NCBI GenBank assembly: GCA_030715195.1
Contig: JAUYVI010000001.1
Coordinates: forward strand, 744,001-808,000
Direction of reading: 5' to 3'
DNA: 64,000 nucleotides
DNA from: Dongia sedimenti
GTDB lineage: Bacteria; Pseudomonadota; Alphaproteobacteria; Dongiales; Dongiaceae
The first letter of the stretch is position 1, and every line of letters begins with the position of its first letter. Shown here one piece after another: positions 34,868 to 46,657 of this stretch. The notes below the pieces were generated by a model. The model did not search any database, was not told where the DNA came from, and was given only the letters and a program-made list of their open reading frames with translations. Position numbers and translations under genes: made by a program.

Positions 34868-34963
34868 TCCTGCTCGAGTTGTTGCCAAGACCCGGATCTC
34901 GTGACCTAGTCGCGAGATGATGGAGTTTGTAGACTTGTCCGGTTTTGACGAGACAGGCGGGTG

Positions 34964-35749
34964 ATGGCGAAGGGCTTCGCAGTCTGGATCCTGGTTTTGG
35001 CGTTCGGCGCGGGCGGCGCTGCGGCCGAGCCGATGACCGTGAAGCAGATCTCGCAGATCCTGTTCAAGGCGGCACCCGGCTCGGCGCCGGATCTCAGCCA
35101 TGCCGATCTCGGCGGGCTCGATCTCAGCGATCTCGATTTCAAGCATGCAAAGCTCGTCGGTGCCGATCTCTATGGCGCCAATCTGGCGCGGGCCAATCTG
35201 GCCGGGGCGGATCTGCGCGGCGCCAGCCTCGATCACACGATCATCACCACCACGAATTTCACCGGCGCCAATCTGGAGAAGGCGACGTTGTACGGCACAG
35301 CGGCGTATTCGACCTTGGACGCGATGACCCGGGCGGAGGCGCCGAGTTTTGCCGGCGCCAATCTCTCCGGCGCCCTCGTCATGTCGCCGCTGGCCCGGGT
35401 GGATTTCCGCGGCGCCAACATGAGCCATCTCAAGACCCAGCAGGGGCGGGCACGGCTGGAATGGATTCTGTGGAGCGATTTCTCGGGCTCCGATTTTACC
35501 GGGTGCGACCTGTCCTATGCGGAGTTACCGCAGGCGAAGCTGCGCTTCGCCAAACTGGTCAATGCGAACCTGACCGGCGCGCTGCTGGCGGGCGCCGATC
35601 TCTCGCACGCCGACTTGACCGGGGCTGACCTGACGGGCGCGGAACTGACCGGCGCGGATCTCGACGGCGCAATCCTCAAAGGGGTCGTAGGGCTCGACCA
35701 GGCAAAGGGGCTGGATGCGGCGAAGAACCGGGACAAGGCGATCTACTGA
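34964..35749 (+). CDS. Secreted pentapeptide-repeat protein, copy 1
   Basis: 261 aa. Signal peptide ends near GGAAA-E (residue 21). Two blocks of A(D/N)LxG pentapeptide repeats, at roughly residues 40-90 and 175-245, flank a less regular segment, predicting two right-handed beta-helical coils. It ends QAKGLDAAKNRDKAIY. AGGCGG precedes the GTG-ATG start; I take the ATG. The next gene is a paralogue whose start codon lies inside this gene's last 35 bases. Function unknown; most pentapeptide proteins of this kind are structural or binding proteins. Confidence 0.85.
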   Translation: MAKGFAVWILVLAFGAGGAAAEPMTVKQISQILFKAAPGSAPDLSHADLGGLDLSDLDFKHAKLVGADLYGANLARANLAGADLRGASLDHTIITTTNFTGANLEKATLYGTAAYSTLDAMTRAEAPSFAGANLSGALVMSPLARVDFRGANMSHLKTQQGRARLEWILWSDFSGSDFTGCDLSYAELPQAKLRFAKLVNANLTGALLAGADLSHADLTGADLTGAELTGADLDGAILKGVVGLDQAKGLDAAKNRDKAIY

Positions 35750-36524
35750 CGCCTGCGCGGCTGTTGCGCTGATGCTCGCCGCCTTGCTGCCGGCGGCGGC
35801 TCAGGCGCTGACCCTGAAGCAGGTGAGCCAGGCACTGGTGAAGGCGACGCCGGGCAATCCGGCGGACTTCTCCCATGCCGATCTCGTCGGCCTGGATCTC
35901 AGCGATCTCGACTTCAAAGGCGCAAGGCTGGTCGGTGCCGATCTCCTCGGCGCCAACCTGTCACGCGCCAACCTCGCCGGCGCCGATCTCAGCGGCGCCA
36001 AGCTCGACCGCGCGACCATCACCAGCACGAATTTCGCCGGCGCCGATCTCTCGGATGCCAGCCTGTTCGATATCGCGGCCTATTCGACCACCGAGTTTCC
36101 GAAGCCCTCCGAGGCGCCGAATTTCGCCGGCGCCGATCTCTCGGGCACGAATATCCAGGCGCGGCTCACCGGCGCCAACATGCGGGGCGCCGATCTTTCC
36201 AACGCGCGCTTGGGGCTCAGGCGCGGCCAGCTGAAGTCGCCGATCTGGCACGATCTCTCGGGCTGCGATCTCTCCGGTGCAAAGCTCCGCAACACCGATC
36301 TGCATGGCGTCCATCTGCAATTCACCAAGCTGGTCGGCGCGGATCTGACTGGTGCCAATCTCACCGTGGCCGATCTCTCGCATGCAGATTTGACGGGAGC
36401 GGATCTGACGAGCGCGGACCTGACCGGTGCCGATCTCGAAGGCGCGATCCTGCGCGATGCCAAGGGCCTGGCCGAGGCGAAGGGAATGGGTGATGCGAAG
36501 AACCGGGACAAAGCGGTTTACTGA
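35715..36524 (+). CDS. Secreted pentapeptide-repeat protein, copy 2
   Basis: 269 aa, paralogue of copy 1: after the signal peptide (MRRRTGTRRST then a hydrophobic stretch ending PAAAQA) it reads LTLKQVSQALVKATPG, matching copy 1's MTVKQISQILFKAAPG, and both continue into LVGLDLSDLDFK-like repeats. The ATG at 35715 overlaps copy 1 by 35 bases and has AAAGGGG upstream within copy 1. It ends AEAKGMGDAKNRDKAVY, again overlapped by the next gene. So tandem duplication carried the overlapping junction with it. Confidence 0.85.
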   Translation: MRRRTGTRRSTDACAAVALMLAALLPAAAQALTLKQVSQALVKATPGNPADFSHADLVGLDLSDLDFKGARLVGADLLGANLSRANLAGADLSGAKLDRATITSTNFAGADLSDASLFDIAAYSTTEFPKPSEAPNFAGADLSGTNIQARLTGANMRGADLSNARLGLRRGQLKSPIWHDLSGCDLSGAKLRNTDLHGVHLQFTKLVGADLTGANLTVADLSHADLTGADLTSADLTGADLEGAILRDAKGLAEAKGMGDAKNRDKAVY

Positions 36525-37224
36525 GACGCTGGCGGCGCTCCTCGCCGCGCTGCTACTCCCGGCAACGGCGGCAAGGGCCGAGACCGAGATGGTCGACACC
36601 GCCCTGGTGCTGGCGGTCGATGTCTCGCAGTCGGTCGATGACGCGCGCTTCGCCCTGCAGATGGAGGGCATCGCCAAGGCCTTCGAGGATGCGGAGGTGC
36701 AGCGCTCGATTCTCTCCGGGCCGCATCGCGCGATCTTCGTGACGCTGGTGGAATGGTCGGACAAGGCCGCGGTGGCGGTGCCCTGGACCTTGATCACCAG
36801 CCCCGGGGACGCGAATGCCTTCGCGGCAGCCTTGCGCAAGACGCCGCGGCACGGCGCGGAATTCACCTGCATGTCGCGCGCCCTGCAGCTGATCGGCGAC
36901 AAGATCCTGCCCTTCCTGCCGATGCCGGCGAACCGCACGGTCGTCGACGTCTCGTCGGACGGGCACGACAACTGCAACCTCTCGCCCCCGGTCGATGTGC
37001 TGCGTGACGAACTGGTGGCCAGCGGCGTCACCATCAACGGGCTGCCGATTCTGGAAGGCGACGAGGCCGCGACGCTCGATGGCTGGTACAAGGCGCATGT
37101 GATCGGCGGCACCTCGGCCTTCACCGTGCCGGCGCATGGCTACGGCGACTTCGAGCGCGCCATGCGAAGGAAGTTCGTGACCGAGATCAGCGAAGTGCCG
37201 GCAGTTTTCTTTCCCAACCAGTAG
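36493..37224 (+). CDS. DUF1194-family secreted protein (von Willebrand A-like)
   Basis: 243 aa with a signal peptide (MRRTGTKRF, hydrophobic core, cleavage near TAARA). The mature part starts with a MIDAS-like DVSQSVDDARF (DxSxS), followed by FVTLVEWSDKAAVAVPW and VDVSSDGHDNCNLSPP, characteristic of DUF1194. Function uncharacterised; a metal-dependent adhesion or scaffold role is inferred from the fold. The ATG at 36493 overlaps pentapeptide copy 2 by 32 bases with AAGGGA upstream; the three genes form a coupled unit. Confidence 0.85.
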   Translation: MRRTGTKRFTETLAALLAALLLPATAARAETEMVDTALVLAVDVSQSVDDARFALQMEGIAKAFEDAEVQRSILSGPHRAIFVTLVEWSDKAAVAVPWTLITSPGDANAFAAALRKTPRHGAEFTCMSRALQLIGDKILPFLPMPANRTVVDVSSDGHDNCNLSPPVDVLRDELVASGVTINGLPILEGDEAATLDGWYKAHVIGGTSAFTVPAHGYGDFERAMRRKFVTEISEVPAVFFPNQ

Positions 37225-38615: not shown

Positions 38616-39341
38616 TCAAGGCCGGGTTGGCCCGCGCAGCTCCCCTGGGCGCGCCCGGTGGCGCGAGAGGGTCATGATATCATTGCGATAGTTCAATAAC
38701 TTGGGCAGTTCCGTGCCGGCCGGGCGCCCCTCCTGGACCCTGGCCTGCCAGCGCCGCAGGGCTTCTTTCAGCACATATTCGGTGACATCGACGATCTCGA
38801 GCCCGGCCAACGCCGAAACCGGCCGCCAGGCCAGATCTTCCAATTCGCCGTTGCTGTCGAGCGATCCGACCGCCTGGGCGCCGTCCGCCAGGAAGAAGCG
38901 GGTGTTGTAGCGCCGGGCCGAGGTCACCGGGGTGATCGCCCGGCAGATGAAATCGAGGGCGCCGAGATCGGGGGCCAGGCCGGCCTTCCGATAGGCTTGC
39001 CAGACGGGGAGATCGCCGACGGCTTCCGATCCGCCGGGCCGGCCGACCACCAGCCCGGTCTCTTCAAGGGTCTCGCGCAGCGCGGCGCGCGGGAAGGCGA
39101 GCACCGGCCGTCGGCTGCCCCCGCTCGCCAGCGCAGCCGCAACGGCGGGGTGCAGGGTTTCGGCGAAGCCGCTCGGTCTATGGTCCTCGGGATCGACCCG
39201 GCCGCCGGGCACGACATAGATGTCGGGCAGGAATCCGGCGCGGCGATGGCGCCGGCCGAGGAGGATCTCGGGCTCGCCCTTGGATCCGGCGCGAATCAGC
39301 ACCAGTCCCGCGGCGTCCACCGGTTTGACCACCTTCGCCAT
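38616..39341 (-). CDS. Nudix hydrolase (NUDT19/CoA-pyrophosphatase-like)
   Basis: 241 aa. PDIYVVPGGRVDPED gives the GG start and ALRETLEETGL the REEXXEEXG core of the Nudix box, separated by a long insert of about 35 residues. Such inserted boxes occur in the NUDT19-like group. C-terminal LPKLLNYRNDIMTLSRHR is unassigned. Ten bases separate it from the upstream Ctp stop codon, and it precedes rpmG, an order seen in other alphaproteobacteria. Confidence 0.85.
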   Translation of the reverse strand: MAKVVKPVDAAGLVLIRAGSKGEPEILLGRRHRRAGFLPDIYVVPGGRVDPEDHRPSGFAETLHPAVAAALASGGSRRPVLAFPRAALRETLEETGLVVGRPGGSEAVGDLPVWQAYRKAGLAPDLGALDFICRAITPVTSARRYNTRFFLADGAQAVGSLDSNGELEDLAWRPVSALAGLEIVDVTEYVLKEALRRWQARVQEGRPAGTELPKLLNYRNDIMTLSRHRARPGELRGPTRP

Positions 39342-39351
39342 GGCCGGCAGC

Positions 39352-40980
39352 CTAGGGCAGGATCGTGTAGTCGTCTTTAACGGAGGAATCGCTGGCCGAC
39401 TGGATCGGCGGGGCCGCCAGGTGAATCGCGTCGGCGAACAGGGTCGGCCGGTTCAGCAGGCGGACGGCGGTTTCAAGGTCGATCGGGTCGGCCTCATGTC
39501 GGGCCGGGCAGGTCTTCCGGAGGGCATCCATGCCGGCGATGTCGTCCGGGCGCACGGTGTTGCGCTTCATGGTCGGAACCTGCTTCAGCTCGCCGGCGGC
39601 GAGCTCGTTGATCAGCACGCCGGGATCGTTCTCGCCCGAAGTGCAGACCGTCGGCAGCACGCCGAGGTGATGCAGGCTGTAGCCGGAGGGCGCGTGATAG
39701 CGGGCCCAGGTGAGCGCGATCTCGCCCTTGTTCGGCAGGCTCATCACGTTCTGGACCGTGCCCTTGCCGTAGGAGTTGCTGCCGATCAGCACGGCGCGCT
39801 CGTTGTCCTGCAAGGCGGCCGCCACGATCTCGGCGGCGGAGGCGGAGTTGCCGTCGATCAGCACGGCGATCGGCTTGCCGCGCGCGATGTCGCCCTCGGT
39901 CGCCTCGAAGAACTGGTGGCTGTCTGGATTGCGGCCGATGGTCGAGACGATCTTGCCGCGGTCGAGGAACAGATTTGAGGTCGAGATCGCCTGGCTGAGC
40001 AGCCCGCCCGGATTGCCGCGGAGATCGAGGATGTAGCCCTTGATGTTGTCTTCGCCGATCTCGGCCTTGGCGTCGCGAATCTCGCGCCGCAGGGTCTCGG
40101 TGGTGCCGGAATTGAAGCTGTAGATGCGGAAATAGGCGATATCGCCTTCGCGCTGATAGGCGACCGTCTCCGGCACGACCAGGGCGCGGATCAGCGAAAC
40201 CTGGAACGGATTCTCCTGGGTCTTGCGCTTCAGGGTCAGGGTCACGCGGCTGTCCACCGGGCCGCGCAGCTTGTTCACAACCTCGCGCTGCGGCAGGCCG
40301 CCGATCGGCGTGCCGTCGATCTCGGTGATGATGTCGTCGCGATGGATGCCGAGGCGGTCGGCCGGCGTGTAGTGCATCACCGAAACGACGCGGACCTGGC
40401 CGTCCTCGACCGAGATGGTGACGCCGATGCCGCCGAAGCCGTCGCGCTGGGCGCGGAGATCCGCAGCATTGGCCGCGGAGGCATAATGCGAGAACTGGTC
40501 GAGCTTGCCGACGATGCCGTCGAACATCGCCTCGTAGAGCTTCTCGGCCGGCGCGCCGGCGATCTTGTCCGAGGATTCGCGGGCCTGATCGAGGATGTCG
40601 GCGGTGACGTCGCCCCAATGGCGTGCGTCGAGGCCGTCATTGACGGCGATGCTCTCGACCGAGCGGTTGTTGACCAGCAGCTCGAGCGTGTCGCCGCTGC
40701 GCCGCGCGACCACGGCGGGATCGATCGAGGAGAGCTGCTGCATGCCGGCGAGCGCCATGGCGCCGATATCGGGTTCGGTGACGTAGATGTCCTCGATGTC
40801 TTCGAAGCCGGTCACGAACATGTCGTGGTCGAGCTGGCGGGAGGATTCCGCGGAGGTGAGCGTGCCGTCGCTGGAACAGGCGCTGAGAGTCAGCAACGCG
40901 CCCGCAAAAGTCAGCAGGCGGAGTCGGGCTCCGGGCAGCCACCCCGCACCGGATACGCGTAACAGCAGCACTTTGGGCAT
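39352..40980 (-). CDS. S41 (carboxy-terminal processing) protease, lipoprotein, active copy
   Basis: 542 aa from the ATG at 40980. Lipoprotein signal with lipobox LSAC (Cys35). A PDZ domain (about residues 180-260) precedes the S41 protease core; the Ser-Lys dyad is present as S381 in NSASAAE and K406 in SYGKGTVQ, 25 residues apart as in Prc and D1 protease. Cleaves periplasmic proteins at their C-termini; substrates unknown. A 13-codon longer start at 41019 is possible. It has an inactive-looking paralogue upstream. Confidence 0.9.
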   Translation of the reverse strand: MPKVLLLRVSGAGWLPGARLRLLTFAGALLTLSACSSDGTLTSAESSRQLDHDMFVTGFEDIEDIYVTEPDIGAMALAGMQQLSSIDPAVVARRSGDTLELLVNNRSVESIAVNDGLDARHWGDVTADILDQARESSDKIAGAPAEKLYEAMFDGIVGKLDQFSHYASAANAADLRAQRDGFGGIGVTISVEDGQVRVVSVMHYTPADRLGIHRDDIITEIDGTPIGGLPQREVVNKLRGPVDSRVTLTLKRKTQENPFQVSLIRALVVPETVAYQREGDIAYFRIYSFNSGTTETLRREIRDAKAEIGEDNIKGYILDLRGNPGGLLSQAISTSNLFLDRGKIVSTIGRNPDSHQFFEATEGDIARGKPIAVLIDGNSASAAEIVAAALQDNERAVLIGSNSYGKGTVQNVMSLPNKGEIALTWARYHAPSGYSLHHLGVLPTVCTSGENDPGVLINELAAGELKQVPTMKRNTVRPDDIAGMDALRKTCPARHEADPIDLETAVRLLNRPTLFADAIHLAAPPIQSASDSSVKDDYTILP

Positions 40981-41272: not shown

Positions 41273-42823
41273 TCACGGCCCGACCAACTGACGGGCGCGG
41301 TCGTAAAGCTGTCGATCCGCGAGCAATGCAGTGGCTATCCCTATGTCACGGTCGTCGCCCGCGGTGGCCGTCGGTTGTCCACAGGCGGTGCGGAGGGCTC
41401 GAAGGGCAGAGGCGTCAGTCTTGACGATGTGTCGCTTGGCAATGATCGGAAACTCCTGTTCCGAAAGGTCGGCACGCTGCAGATCCTTGGACCATGCGTC
41501 GCCGATCCGTGCGGTGCAGAGCGAAGGGATCACGGCTGTGTCGGTCAGCTGCGCCCCGTCCGGTGTCAATGTTTGAGCCCAGGTCAACGCAAGTTCGCTG
41601 CCGTCGGGCAGAGCCACGACGTTCTGTATGGAGCCGCGCCCAAGCGATGCTCCTCCGATGATCACGGCACGACCCTCGGCCTGAAGGGCCATAGCAACGA
41701 TCTCGGCGCCAGCCGCCGCGCTCCCGTCGATCAGCACGGCGATCGGTTTGCCCTGCGTGATGTCGCCCTCGGTCGCCTCGAAGAACTGGTGGCTGTCGGG
41801 GTTGCGACCGGTCGTCGAGACGATCTTGCCGTGTTCGAGGAAAAGGTTCGAGGTCGAAATCGCCTGGCTCAAGAGGCCGCCCGGATTGCCGCGGAGGTCA
41901 ACCAGATACGCTTTGGGCGCGTTTCCGCTACTTTCGAAGTCGCGGAAGGTCTTCCGCAATACCGTTGTCGTCTCACTGGCAAACGTGCAGATCTGCACGA
42001 AGCCTACGGAACCGATTTGATCGCTGTGGACCTGTGCGCGATCCGAACCGCGACGGCGGACGAGCGATTGATGCAGCGGCTGAGCAACGCCCGGCCGCGA
42101 TACCTCGATATCCACCTTGGAGTCGGGCGGACCGTAAAGCAGTCGATTCGCCTGCAGGGGAGTCATCGCCGACACGTCCTGACCGTCGATGGTCAGCACA
42201 ACATCGCCATAACGCGGGCTGCGCAAAAGCGGTGAAATACAGTCCGTGTTGGACATGATCGCCAGATTGCCGTCGATCTGTCCCAGTCCGATGCTCGCCC
42301 TTGCGCGGCCTCCCGTCTGTTGCTCCCGCAGGAATTTCGCATCGTCCGCCGACGCATACCCGGAGTCCCGGTCCAAGCGCGAAAGGATCCCCGCGAATAC
42401 CTGCTCTTGAAGCTGGTCCGCCGGCATCTTCTGCAGCTTTGGAGAATGAGCCGTGACGGATTCCAGAAGTCGTTCCATCGCCGCGCCCCAAGTTGCAGGC
42501 GGCGCTGATTCGTCGATCGGAACATGCTCGATGACACCGCCGTTCTGCAGCAGCTCCAATCTCCCGGACACGAACCGAGCATCCAAGGAACTATCCAGAT
42601 CGGAAAGCTTGTGGATGCCGGCTACGGCGATCTCCGGAAAGTTTGGATTGGCGATGTAGAGTTCGTCGATCGACCTGAGAGCGGCCTCATACAAGCCTTC
42701 CGAAGTCCGGGCTCCTGCGCCCGATGGCGCTGGTTGGGCGCAACCACCGAGCACCAGGAGTGTGAACAAGGCCGCTTTGCAGCAACGGAGAGCCTTCCCC
42801 TGCGCCGGTGCATCTGCGTTCAT
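41273..42823 (-). CDS. S41 protease paralogue lacking the catalytic dyad
   Basis: 516-aa lipoprotein (lipobox LGGC, Cys28) with the same domain order as the adjacent S41 protease. At the positions of the catalytic Ser and Lys it has Ala371 (in IDGSAAAGAE) and Arg396 (in ASLGRGSIQ), with the 25-residue spacing kept. Sequence outside the core is far diverged, yet residues about 308-367 (DLRGNPGGLLSQAIS through GKPIAVLIDG) are almost identical to the active copy at protein and DNA level. Reading frame is intact, so it is not simply a decayed gene; a binding or regulatory role is inferred. Confidence 0.85.
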   Translation of the reverse strand: MNADAPAQGKALRCCKAALFTLLVLGGCAQPAPSGAGARTSEGLYEAALRSIDELYIANPNFPEIAVAGIHKLSDLDSSLDARFVSGRLELLQNGGVIEHVPIDESAPPATWGAAMERLLESVTAHSPKLQKMPADQLQEQVFAGILSRLDRDSGYASADDAKFLREQQTGGRARASIGLGQIDGNLAIMSNTDCISPLLRSPRYGDVVLTIDGQDVSAMTPLQANRLLYGPPDSKVDIEVSRPGVAQPLHQSLVRRRGSDRAQVHSDQIGSVGFVQICTFASETTTVLRKTFRDFESSGNAPKAYLVDLRGNPGGLLSQAISTSNLFLEHGKIVSTTGRNPDSHQFFEATEGDITQGKPIAVLIDGSAAAGAEIVAMALQAEGRAVIIGGASLGRGSIQNVVALPDGSELALTWAQTLTPDGAQLTDTAVIPSLCTARIGDAWSKDLQRADLSEQEFPIIAKRHIVKTDASALRALRTACGQPTATAGDDRDIGIATALLADRQLYDRARQLVGP

Positions 42824-42863: not shown

Positions 42864-45236
42864 TCAACGACGCCTGCGCTTCGCGGCTTTGCGCGAATGG
42901 ATCGGTGGCCCGGCCGGGCGGCCGGGCTTGTTGCGTGATCCTTTGGCGCCGGGTCGGGCAGGCCGGTGGGACGGGGCGGCGGCCGGCTGGTCCTGGCCGC
43001 CACCCTCGATCAGCTCGAAGGTGATGCCGCCGGTCAGGGGCTGGGCGGCGACCAGGCGGACCTGGACGCGGTCGCCGAGCCGGTAGACCTGGCCCCAGCG
43101 CCGGCCGACCAGGGCGTGCCGCGCCTCGTCATGTTCGTAGAAGTCGTTGGGCAGCGAGGAGACCGGGATGATGCCGTCGGCGCCGGTTTCGTCGAGGGCG
43201 ACGAACAGGCCGGCGCGGATCACCCCGGAGACACGCCCGGAGAAGATTTCGCCGATGCGCTTGGAGAGGAAGGCGGCGGTGTAGCGATCGACCGATTCGC
43301 GCTCCGCCGCGGCGGCCCGTCGCTCGGTGGCGCTGATATGCTCGCCCAATTCCTTGAAGCCCTTCACCTCGCGGTCGAGGCCGTCTTCACCGAAGCCGTA
43401 GGCCGCGATCAGCGCGCGATGCACCAGCAGGTCGGAATAGCGCCGGATCGGCGAGGTGAAATGCGCATAGCGGCTGAGCGCCAGGCCGAAATGGCCAAGG
43501 TTCTCCGGCGAGTACACGGCCTGCGACTGCGAACGCAAGACCAAGCTGTTGATCATGTCGGAATAGGGCGTGCTCTTCGCTTTTTCCAGCAGCTTGGTGA
43601 AATGCGCCGGCCGGATCACCTGGCCGCGCGGCAGCCGCAGGTCGAGGCCTTCGAGGAACTCGCGCAGCGCTTCGACGCGGGTCGGATCGGGCTGGTCGTG
43701 CACCCGGTACATGCAGGGCCAGCGGCGCTTCTCCAACGCTTCCGCCGCCGCGACATTGGCGGCGATCATGAACTCCTCGATCAGGCGATGGGAATCCAGG
43801 CGGTCGCGCGCCTCGATCTTCAAGACCTCGCCCTGATTGTCGATGAGCACTCTGCGCTCAGGCAGGTCGAGTTCCAGCGTGCCGCGTTCCTGGCGTGCTT
43901 TCAGCAGGGCGCGGAAGGCGCCGTAGAGCGGCTGGATCACGGGTTCGAGCAGAAGGCCGGTAACGGCATCGGTGCGCCCGTCCATCGCGGCCTGGGCGCG
44001 CTCATAGGTCAGCCGCGCGGCCGAGCGCATGAGGCCGCGCAGGAATTGATGGCGCTTCTTGCGGCCCTCCGCGTCGATCACGATCTCGACCGCCATGACC
44101 GGACGGTCCTCGTCGGGACGCAGGGAGCACCAGCCGTTGCTGAGCTCCTCGGGGAGCATCGGCACGACGCGGTCGGGGAAGTAGACCGAATTGCCGCGCT
44201 CGCGCGCCGACTTGTCGAGCGGGTCGCCTTCGCGCACGTAGTGCGCCACGTCGGCAATCGCGACCAGCAGCTTCCAGCCGCCGGGGTTCTTCGGATCGGT
44301 GTCGGGCTGGGCATGCACCGCGTCGTCGAAGTCGCGCGCGTCCTCGCCGTCGATGGTGACCAGCGGGACATTGCGGAGATCGGTGCGATGGCCGAGGGGC
44401 GCGGGCCCGGCTTCCGCGGCCTGGGTCAGCGCGGCGGGCGGGAAGTCGGTCGGAATCCCATGGGCGGCGATCGCGATCAGGCTGACCGAGCGCGCCTCGC
44501 CGGTGCGCCCGAGCCGCTCGACCACGCGGGCGCGCGGCGTGCCCATCGGTCTTCCGGGCTCGACCTCGGCCACGACGATCTCGCCGCTTTTCACGCCGTG
44601 GATGCCGCGCGCGTCGATCGCGAACTCGGTGCGGATGCGCTTGTCCGCGGGCGTGATGCGGAGCGTGCCGTCGGAGGCGCGGGTGATCAGCCCGACCACG
44701 CGCGCGGCACGGCTCTCCAGCTTGCGGATCGGTCGCGCTTCGTATTCGTCGGCATCGGTGCGGTTGAGGCGCACCAGCACGCGGTCGCCGGGGCCCAATG
44801 GCTGGTGCGGGCGCCCGTGATGCTCGCGCTTGTCTTCGATGACCAGGATCTTGGGTTCGGCGTCGTCGGGCCGGAGATCGACCGGTCGCGCCCAGAGATC
44901 GCCGTCCTCGTCCGGCCCGATGATCTGCACCACGGTGACTTCGGGGAGCTGGCCGGCGGCGCCCAGCCGGCGGTGCTTGCCGCGATCGACGGCGCCGTCG
45001 CGCTCCAGCTCCTTCAGCAGCGCCTTCAGCGGAATCCGATCGGAGCCTTTGAGATGGAAGGCGCGGGCGATCTCTCGCTTGCCGATCGGCGTCGGGCTCT
45101 CGCGGATGAAGGCGAGCACCTGCTCCTTGGTCGGGAAGGGCGCCGCCTTCTTGCCGTGCCGCTTCTCGGGCTCGGCCGGCGCTTTCTTGCCGCCGCGCGC
45201 CTTGCGATCAGGCTTGCTTGAGCTCGATTTCGACAA
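42864..45236 (-). CDS. rnr: Ribonuclease R
   Basis: 790-aa processive 3'-5' exoribonuclease. Lys-rich N-terminus, a winged-helix segment (REIARAFHLKGSDRIPLKALLKELE), cold-shock OB domains, the RNB catalytic domain with the metal-binding Asp cluster in TIDGEDARDFDDAVHA near residue 300, and a C-terminal S1 domain ending in a basic tail (HSRKAAKRRRR). The only usable initiation codon before the conserved part is a TTG at 45236, which overlaps the upstream cupin gene by 29 bases and lacks a clear ribosome-binding site. Confidence 0.94.
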   Translation of the reverse strand: MSKSSSSKPDRKARGGKKAPAEPEKRHGKKAAPFPTKEQVLAFIRESPTPIGKREIARAFHLKGSDRIPLKALLKELERDGAVDRGKHRRLGAAGQLPEVTVVQIIGPDEDGDLWARPVDLRPDDAEPKILVIEDKREHHGRPHQPLGPGDRVLVRLNRTDADEYEARPIRKLESRAARVVGLITRASDGTLRITPADKRIRTEFAIDARGIHGVKSGEIVVAEVEPGRPMGTPRARVVERLGRTGEARSVSLIAIAAHGIPTDFPPAALTQAAEAGPAPLGHRTDLRNVPLVTIDGEDARDFDDAVHAQPDTDPKNPGGWKLLVAIADVAHYVREGDPLDKSARERGNSVYFPDRVVPMLPEELSNGWCSLRPDEDRPVMAVEIVIDAEGRKKRHQFLRGLMRSAARLTYERAQAAMDGRTDAVTGLLLEPVIQPLYGAFRALLKARQERGTLELDLPERRVLIDNQGEVLKIEARDRLDSHRLIEEFMIAANVAAAEALEKRRWPCMYRVHDQPDPTRVEALREFLEGLDLRLPRGQVIRPAHFTKLLEKAKSTPYSDMINSLVLRSQSQAVYSPENLGHFGLALSRYAHFTSPIRRYSDLLVHRALIAAYGFGEDGLDREVKGFKELGEHISATERRAAAAERESVDRYTAAFLSKRIGEIFSGRVSGVIRAGLFVALDETGADGIIPVSSLPNDFYEHDEARHALVGRRWGQVYRLGDRVQVRLVAAQPLTGGITFELIEGGGQDQPAAAPSHRPARPGAKGSRNKPGRPAGPPIHSRKAAKRRRR

Positions 45237-45580: not shown

Positions 45581-46657
45581 CTAGAGGCCCAGCGAGAGAT
45601 TGACGCCGCCGAAGATGACGCGGTTGCCGTCCTGGCCGTCGAATTCCTTGGTGCGATAGGTGGCCGAGGCATCCATCCGGAAGGCATCCGACCAGAACAA
45701 GGCCACGCCGGCCGAGAGATCGCCGACCAGCGGCTTCTTGTCGACGCTGCGGCTGTCCTCGAACGTGTTGCCGTCGAGGAAGATGTTGCGGCCGACCGCG
45801 CGGCCCTGGGCCGCGACGTAGAAGTAGTAGCCGAACGGGCTGGTCATCGCATCGGCATTGAAATAGCTGGTGCCGGAGGTCGAGGGCCGCATCCGTTGCT
45901 GACCGTAATCCGCGAGCAGGCCCTGGCCGAAGCGCAGGGTGACGCCGGTCTCGCCATAGGTCATGACATTGCCGACCGTGGCGCCGAGCTCGGGGATCGC
46001 CTCGATCTCCTGGCCCCAGAACAGCGGCTGGTTGAAGCGCCACTTGCGCTCGTAGGAAATCATGACGCCGGGCTCGGTATGGATCTGGTGGTCCCAGCCC
46101 TGGGCCTCGCCGATTCCAATGAACTGGTGCCAGTCGTTCTGTGCATTGCTGCCCATCGAATGCGGTCCGATGATACCCGCGGTGATCTCGAGATGGCTGA
46201 ACTCGCGGTGATCGGTGTCCTGCATCATGCCGAGGCCGGCATACAGCCACCCGGCATAGGGCCGATCGTCCTTGGGCGGGTTCGAAAGGCTGATGTCGGA
46301 CGGCGTGAACACCTGCTGCCCCAGCAGGATCTCGTAGCGCTGCTGGTGCCACTGGCCACCGCCGCGGAAGGGCATGAAGGGGCCACCCGACAAGGCCGCG
46401 AACGGCCCGGAAAAGGCACTGTCGGCCCCGACGCTGGGCGAGAGCCAGGTGAACTGCGCACCCTGGGTGTAGTAGCGATCGTCGCCGAGGTAGATCGAGT
46501 CGTTCTCTTCGATGATCGTCAGCCGGCCGTAGCTGTCTTCCTTGGGATCGTCGGCGGAGGCCGGCCCCCAGGCGAGCAGGGTCAAGCCGGCCAGGCTGAT
46601 TGAGAGTGCAGTGCGCCGTGCCGGCCAGCGCCGGAGCCTGGAAAACGCCGATTTCAT
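45581..46657 (-). CDS. LpxR-like (DUF2219) outer-membrane lipid A deacylase family protein
   Basis: 358 aa with a signal peptide (ending GPASA). LpxR-family signatures: IIEENDSIYLGDDRYYTQG at the mature N-terminus (the Asn-Asp pair is catalytic in Salmonella LpxR), DDRPYAGWLYAGL, and GPHSMGSNAQNDWHQFIG carrying the likely catalytic His. It ends in a beta-strand terminating in Leu (GGVNLSLGL). LpxR removes the 3'-acyloxyacyl group of lipid A; whether this homologue does so is untested. Confidence 0.85.
   Translation of the reverse strand: MKSAFSRLRRWPARRTALSISLAGLTLLAWGPASADDPKEDSYGRLTIIEENDSIYLGDDRYYTQGAQFTWLSPSVGADSAFSGPFAALSGGPFMPFRGGGQWHQQRYEILLGQQVFTPSDISLSNPPKDDRPYAGWLYAGLGMMQDTDHREFSHLEITAGIIGPHSMGSNAQNDWHQFIGIGEAQGWDHQIHTEPGVMISYERKWRFNQPLFWGQEIEAIPELGATVGNVMTYGETGVTLRFGQGLLADYGQQRMRPSTSGTSYFNADAMTSPFGYYFYVAAQGRAVGRNIFLDGNTFEDSRSVDKKPLVGDLSAGVALFWSDAFRMDASATYRTKEFDGQDGNRVIFGGVNLSLGL

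Follow-up and report, generated by a model that had tools for sequence, protein, structure and literature searches.

A catalytically dead S41 protease homologue beside its active paralogue in Dongia sedimenti: a possible non-cutting partner

An intact gene of Dongia sedimenti encodes an S41 protease homologue in which both residues of the catalytic dyad are replaced, next to a paralogue that retains them. As judged from its sequence, the protein is a pseudoprotease in the sense that catalytic residues were lost from an intact gene. Our preferred reading, held tentatively and at somewhat less than even confidence, is that the lipoprotein S41 protease linked to rnr has a second, lineage-restricted copy here, without catalysis and without the activation switch, which may be retained as a partner that does not cut but serves alongside the active protein. 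Beyond what a first-pass annotation of this DNA had noted, the new elements are a conversion tract, probably received from the active gene, and the apparent loss of the activation residues.

The locus and the catalytic dyad

On the minus strand of the window (the whole stretch of DNA that was analysed, 64,000 nucleotides), rnr (45236-42864) is followed by the dead S41 gene (42823-41273), then by its active counterpart (40980-39352) and finally by a Nudix gene (39341-38616). The features are as follows.

42864..45236, minus strand: rnr, the upstream neighbour at a distance of 40 nt from the dead gene, with RNB, CSD2 and S1 domains
41273..42823, minus strand: dead S41 homologue of 516 aa, with lipoprotein-like signal, N-terminal region, cap, degenerate PDZ, S41 core and C-terminal region
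42740..42823, minus strand: residues 1-28 of the dead copy, by eye a lipoprotein-like signal (LVLGGC with Cys28)
41711..41713, minus strand: Ala371 at the nucleophile Ser position, from alignment with S41 rows and solved CtpA chains
41636..41638, minus strand: Arg396 at the general-base Lys position, from the same alignments
39352..40980, minus strand: active-type lipoprotein S41 protease, 542 aa from the likely start at 40980 (a presumed start choice)
39838-39840, minus strand: catalytic Ser of the active gene, Ser448 of the 609-aa ORF, or S381 if the start is at 40980
39763-39765, minus strand: catalytic Lys of the active gene, Lys473 of the 609-aa ORF, or K406 if the start is at 40980
38616..39341, minus strand: Nudix gene, downstream neighbour

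The two S41 genes are adjacent and in the same orientation, with 292 nt between the end of the dead gene and the likely start of the active one, and a lipoprotein-like signal was seen by eye in each. The active ORF is open from 41181 (609 aa) and has an ATG at 40980. The dead-copy ORF begins with ATG, 5 nt behind a GGAG, and runs over 516 aa. It has no internal stop, in agreement with the intact frame of 516 codons described in the first-pass annotation. The lipobox described there was likewise seen by eye as LVLGGC with Cys28, which we take to be lipobox-like. The Pfam lipoprotein model scored the active protein at 11.5 bits (cut-off 20) and did not list the dead one. Promoter-like and terminator-like sites numbered 0 and 3, respectively, and shuffled sequences gave no fewer. 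In the N-terminal part of the active protein (window 40477-40833, minus strand; about residues 117-155 of the 609-aa ORF) a stretch looks by eye like a candidate second copy of the N-terminal motif of C-terminal processing proteases (CTPs), a motif that recurs near residues 196-235.

The dead copy matches PF03572 with 127.8 bits against a curated cut-off of 24 and is thus a real S41 homologue. NCBIfam TIGR00225 (prc; cut-off 218.6 bits) was passed by the active neighbour with 261.1 bits and missed by the dead copy with 162.4. An alignment of 54 S41 rows was assembled from the two window proteins, the genome's own CtpA and 51 rows from relatives. Ser and Lys occupy the dyad in 53 of these rows; the sole exception is the dead copy with Ala371 and Arg396. 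The spacing between the two positions is 25 in both the dead and the active protein, so that the dyad replacement and the spacing claimed earlier are borne out. When the protein was aligned by sequence to solved chains, Ala371 and Arg396 fell on S300 and K325 of HpCtpA and on S302 and K327 of PaCtpA. The third active-site position is kept, with Gln400 on HpCtpA Gln329. According to PMC11021448, the PaCtpA substitutions S302A and K327A each abolish in vivo activity.

Structure prediction of the dead copy from three rows gave a poor model (pLDDT 48.8). Six rows, built with five S41 rows, gave a middling one (pLDDT 66.3, pTM 0.53), with low confidence at residues 392-399. Its best Foldseek match was 8sxh_B (E 5.2e-23, TM-score by query 0.47, rmsd 12.5). 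Both by sequence and by Foldseek, the best PDB matches were PaCtpA and HpCtpA.

Retained positions, PDZ and activation residues

Among 17 active-type family proteins 138 columns are invariant; the dead copy keeps 85 of these and loses 53, compared with losses of 0 to 9 in a leave-one-out control for each active protein. With region borders set by eye, invariant columns are kept at 7/10 in the N-terminal region, 8/10 in the cap and 10/13 in the C-terminal region (together 25/33), compared with 6/25 in the PDZ (Fisher P 0.00015). Looser cut-offs gave 31/52 vs 12/39 (at least 15 of 17 rows, P 0.010) and 35/69 vs 14/48 (at least 13 rows, P 0.023). The core keeps 5/13 before the conversion tract described below, 24/24 within it and 25/43 after it. 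Against the core outside the tract (30/56), the contrast of the three outer parts had P values of 0.044, 0.15 and 0.42 across the cut-offs. The aligned sequences thus suggest that the outer parts are better kept than the PDZ, and their contrast to the core outside the tract is weak or absent.

The entire PDZ ligand loop of the dead copy is replaced, not deleted. Pfam PDZ models gave no match above cut-off, the PDZ_6 score being 22.2 bits against 27. Two replaced residues lie at positions that matter for the activation of HpCtpA:

42305..42307, minus strand: Arg173 on HpCtpA Phe105; the other 53 rows have Phe (50) or Tyr (3)
42134..42136, minus strand: Tyr230 on HpCtpA Arg162 and BsCtpB Arg168; the other 53 rows have Arg (50), His (2) or Lys (1)

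These positions were mapped by index arithmetic on the solved-chain alignment, in two gap-free blocks; the sequence context of the R162 primer served to anchor the numbering. In addition, Phe164 falls on HpCtpA Glu96, a column with 27 E, 14 D and 12 other residues in the remaining 53 rows. PMC12749690 describes that Glu96 pairs with Arg162 in active HpCtpA subunits, that R162A and R162E lose activity, and that F105R yields an all-resting hexamer. It seems from these alignments that the dead copy lacks the substrate-triggered switch, since hinge Phe, sensor Arg and the acidic partner of the latter are all replaced. As the whole PDZ loop is replaced, it may be by accident that an Arg falls on Phe105. 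In two further S41 proteins, whose dyad is intact, the sensor column holds Ser (L091) and Lys (L089); loss of the sensor Arg alone need not mean rest.

Gene conversion, maintenance and origin

One segment of the dead copy is far more similar to the active gene than the rest:

41726..41896, minus strand: residues 310-366 of the dead copy, a putative conversion tract ending five codons before the nucleophile position
39853..40023, minus strand: counterpart of the tract in the active gene, the presumed donor

Segment by segment over residues 309-368, the dead and active copies show 90% protein identity and 86-90% DNA identity, including one run of 39 identical nt, whereas protein identity outside residues 304-370 is 29%. 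Matching polymorphic sites form a run over residues 310-366 (92/111 match) with a score of 54, compared with a maximum of 16 in 2000 permutations, a test whose model leaves regional constraint aside. Comparisons of the dead copy with the other 16 family proteins scored at most 17. Scores of 22 to 56 also arise between the active protein and its orthologues, where similarity extends over the full length; what counts is hence how the tract stands out from the remainder of the dead/active pair. At amino acids common to both proteins the same codon is used at 40/54 positions in the tract vs 64/128 outside (P 0.003). A tree of the tract joined the dead and active copies with support 100/99. Its stem (0.5) resembles the active protein's own branch in the tree of the rest (0.57) and not the dead-copy branch, from which we infer the direction from active to dead. 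Taken together, the sequences indicate that residues ~310-366 of the dead copy were probably overwritten by the active gene. Because the tract stops five codons short of the nucleophile position, the dead site escaped overwriting. The locus would thus present gene conversion that overwrites part of a pseudoenzyme core while the dead site stays dead.

The tract also allowed us to ask if the gene is maintained. The selection tests assume equal rates and a single conversion event, on a tract delimited by its own similarity; with differences in residues 309-368 taken as post-conversion, Nei-Gojobori counting gave 14.5 synonymous and 7.5 nonsynonymous differences (dS 0.434, dN 0.057, dN/dS 0.13), and so few replacements under free drift at the active gene's rate have P 0.018. 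In simulations (400 each, indels ignored) a neutral frame remained stop-free in 0.5-1% of runs at 0.217 changes per site, in 4-10% at 0.1 and in 18-27% at 0.05. A neutral frame of the length of the dead gene would have acquired a mean of 4.4 to 6.0 stops since conversion, indels not counted. The GC3 of the dead gene, 0.71, is the lowest of 12 window genes measured (0.78-0.90 in the other 11). Together with a branch of 6.97 changes per site, this value fits relaxed constraint. Judged from one genome, the dead gene is probably kept by selection; the earlier suggestion of a maintained protein is favoured by the tract dN/dS and by frame survival in this genome.

At E 1e-55, two matches were present in the window's own genome and one in each of the other 16 family genomes (n = 17). 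Searches for orthologues of the dead copy were negative in the genus (7 genomes), in the family and order (the same 17 genomes), among 61 relatives, and in samples of the class (385 genomes) and the phylum (398 genomes), for both of which at most 3 candidates per genome were scored. At E 1e-50, 98 of the 385 class genomes match. Besides the window's own, three of these have two matches, the second lying on a different contig and spanning only about residues 129-439. In the phylum sample 2 of 398 genomes match at 1e-70, namely the window's own and a genus mate. A GTDB scan with six peptides, from which very near records may be left out, returned 35 stretches with one relative, of the active type. 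Plasmid searches at E 1e-40 gave 19 records, all below 60% identity, and among the matches listed none was identified as an orthologue. Viral contigs showed few S41 rows or none on scanning.

The order rnr, single S41, Nudix was seen in 13/13 relatives whose surroundings were compared. In one relative a dicarboxylate-transporter-like gene (by eye; L069:4850-6169, plus strand) lies between rnr and S41. Extra S41 copies were also inspected, in 12 stretches picked by eye, from which 13 S41 ORFs were read. Ser and Lys are present in 8/13; four distant ORFs have Ser, but their Lys column holds a different residue or has nothing aligned to it, and one (L088) lacks both. Weaker extra copies in three family genomes (G008, G009, G015) were considered as orthologues of the dead copy and rejected, as none resembles it. 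A relative (G020, stretch L081) has two adjacent S41 proteases, each with Ser and Lys, which indicates that tandem CTP pairs need not include a dead member. The ORF without both residues (L088:918-1856, minus strand, also in L092) is a second dead S41 homologue, from a genome of the same class and a different family (G030). Its 312 aa comprise a core and a PDZ-like part; in the dyad columns Gly stands in place of Ser and Asp in place of Lys. By eye, its neighbours resemble a glycine-zipper lipoprotein and a membrane protein.

In a free tree calculated without the tract, the dead copy stood on its branch of 6.97, grouped with another long branch and not with the active protein. AU tests rejected none of the constrained groupings: dead plus active (p 0.696), dead plus active plus genus (0.91) and dead plus family (0.757). 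These constrained trees beat the free tree by 5.4, 7.6 and 5.0 log units, respectively. At columns that separate family from class the dead copy has four family, three class and four other states. If anything, the trees favour a duplication inside the genus.

Possible roles of the dead copy

In the preferred reading, the dead protein would dimerise with the active protease and occupy the place of a resting subunit in the mixed pair. PMC12749690 reports that no more than one subunit of each N-terminal dimer of HpCtpA can be active, its partner resting; the authors point out the cost, half of the molecules. The LbcA-bound PaCtpA dimer is asymmetric, according to PMC11021448. A copy confined to rest would hold the resting place permanently and could determine how many sites are active, or where they lie. 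The dead paralogue, which retains the outer parts of the fold but seems unable to switch on or cut, would suit that place; alternatively, it might act as a brake. In a more specific form, which we consider possible but doubtful, the locus would encode a natural heteromeric CTP. Its dead subunit, with the Phe-to-Arg change that freezes HpCtpA, would permanently fill the resting position that otherwise costs homomeric CtpAs half their active molecules. In BsCtpB both subunits can be active, as stated in PMC12749690, and this counts against the resting-partner reading. If the reading is true, a separate and permanently idle copy would mean that resting is a function in its own right, and the locus would offer a natural mixed system for testing the role of the resting subunit.

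An independent function has a smaller but real chance. The gene may have been neofunctionalised into a stand-alone binding lipoprotein, the S41 fold being reused for a ligand or protein and unrelated to the activity of the neighbour, as in IRBP/RBP3. Very fast divergence outside the tract and a PDZ loop replaced rather than deleted are in line with this, and vertebrate dead S41 domains became retinoid carriers (PMC10450429, PMC11750400). There is, however, no ligand clue, and tandem adjacency and conversion with the active gene suggest, without proving, a shared role. It is rather unlikely that the gene is a decaying duplicate, a functionless relic on its way to a pseudogene. Its presence in 1/17 family genomes, low GC3 and loss of 53/138 family-invariant columns, compared with 0 to 9 in active proteins, agree with decay, but the open 516-codon frame, the lipobox-like signal, the GGAG before the ATG, the tract dN/dS of 0.13 (P 0.018) and the 4.4 to 6.0 stops expected neutrally since conversion (indels not counted) argue otherwise.

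The first-pass annotation had proposed a substrate adaptor or an inhibitor. An adaptor or decoy, whose PDZ would present C-termini to the active protease, appears improbable: the remnant of the PDZ does give a subthreshold PDZ_6 match (22.2 bits, cut-off 27), but ligand loop and sensor Arg are replaced and 6/25 invariant PDZ columns are kept. The inhibitor half of the proposal is conceivable and overlaps the resting-partner reading. We regard it as highly improbable that the protein is still a protease using another nucleophile or base. Ser368 stands three residues ahead of the lost nucleophile and Gln400 is kept, but Ala and Arg occupy the dyad in both alignments (54 rows; solved chains), and arginine is a poor general base.

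Compared with the S41 CTPs PaCtpA, HpCtpA and BsCtpB, the dead copy shares an S41 core above the Pfam cut-off and a PDZ remnant, and differs in lacking Ser, Lys, hinge Phe and sensor Arg. Some of its changes resemble engineered forms: it has a natural Ala at the Ser position (PaCtpA S302A; HpCtpA S300A/K325A/Q329A) and a natural Arg at the Phe105 position (HpCtpA F105R). In contrast to these, it evolved, carries many further changes and keeps the Gln329 position. ClpR and similar proteins are dead paralogues that serve as subunits of mixed protease complexes; they belong to another family and offer an analogy for how the dead copy may work. Dead S41 proteins as such are already known, from IRBP/RBP3 and from the second one seen here (L088). 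IRBP/RBP3 is likewise S41-derived, with catalytic residues lost and a new role, but has several repeated domains, carries retinoids and was horizontally acquired (PMC10450429, PMC11750400), whereas the dead copy is a single bacterial lipoprotein-like protein beside an active paralogue. Among the matches listed in the open-licence literature, there was neither a bacterial CTP that is dead and has an active paralogue as its pair nor one partly overwritten by an adjacent active paralogue.

Further genes were observed around the locus. An LpxR-type outer-membrane protein (window 45581-46600, minus strand; PF09982, 316 bits) has rnr on one side and, by eye, a polyhydroxyalkanoate synthase-like gene on the other. 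At 34961-37224 (plus strand) two tandem pentapeptide-repeat proteins are followed by a DUF1194/VWA protein, the listed ORFs overlapping slightly.
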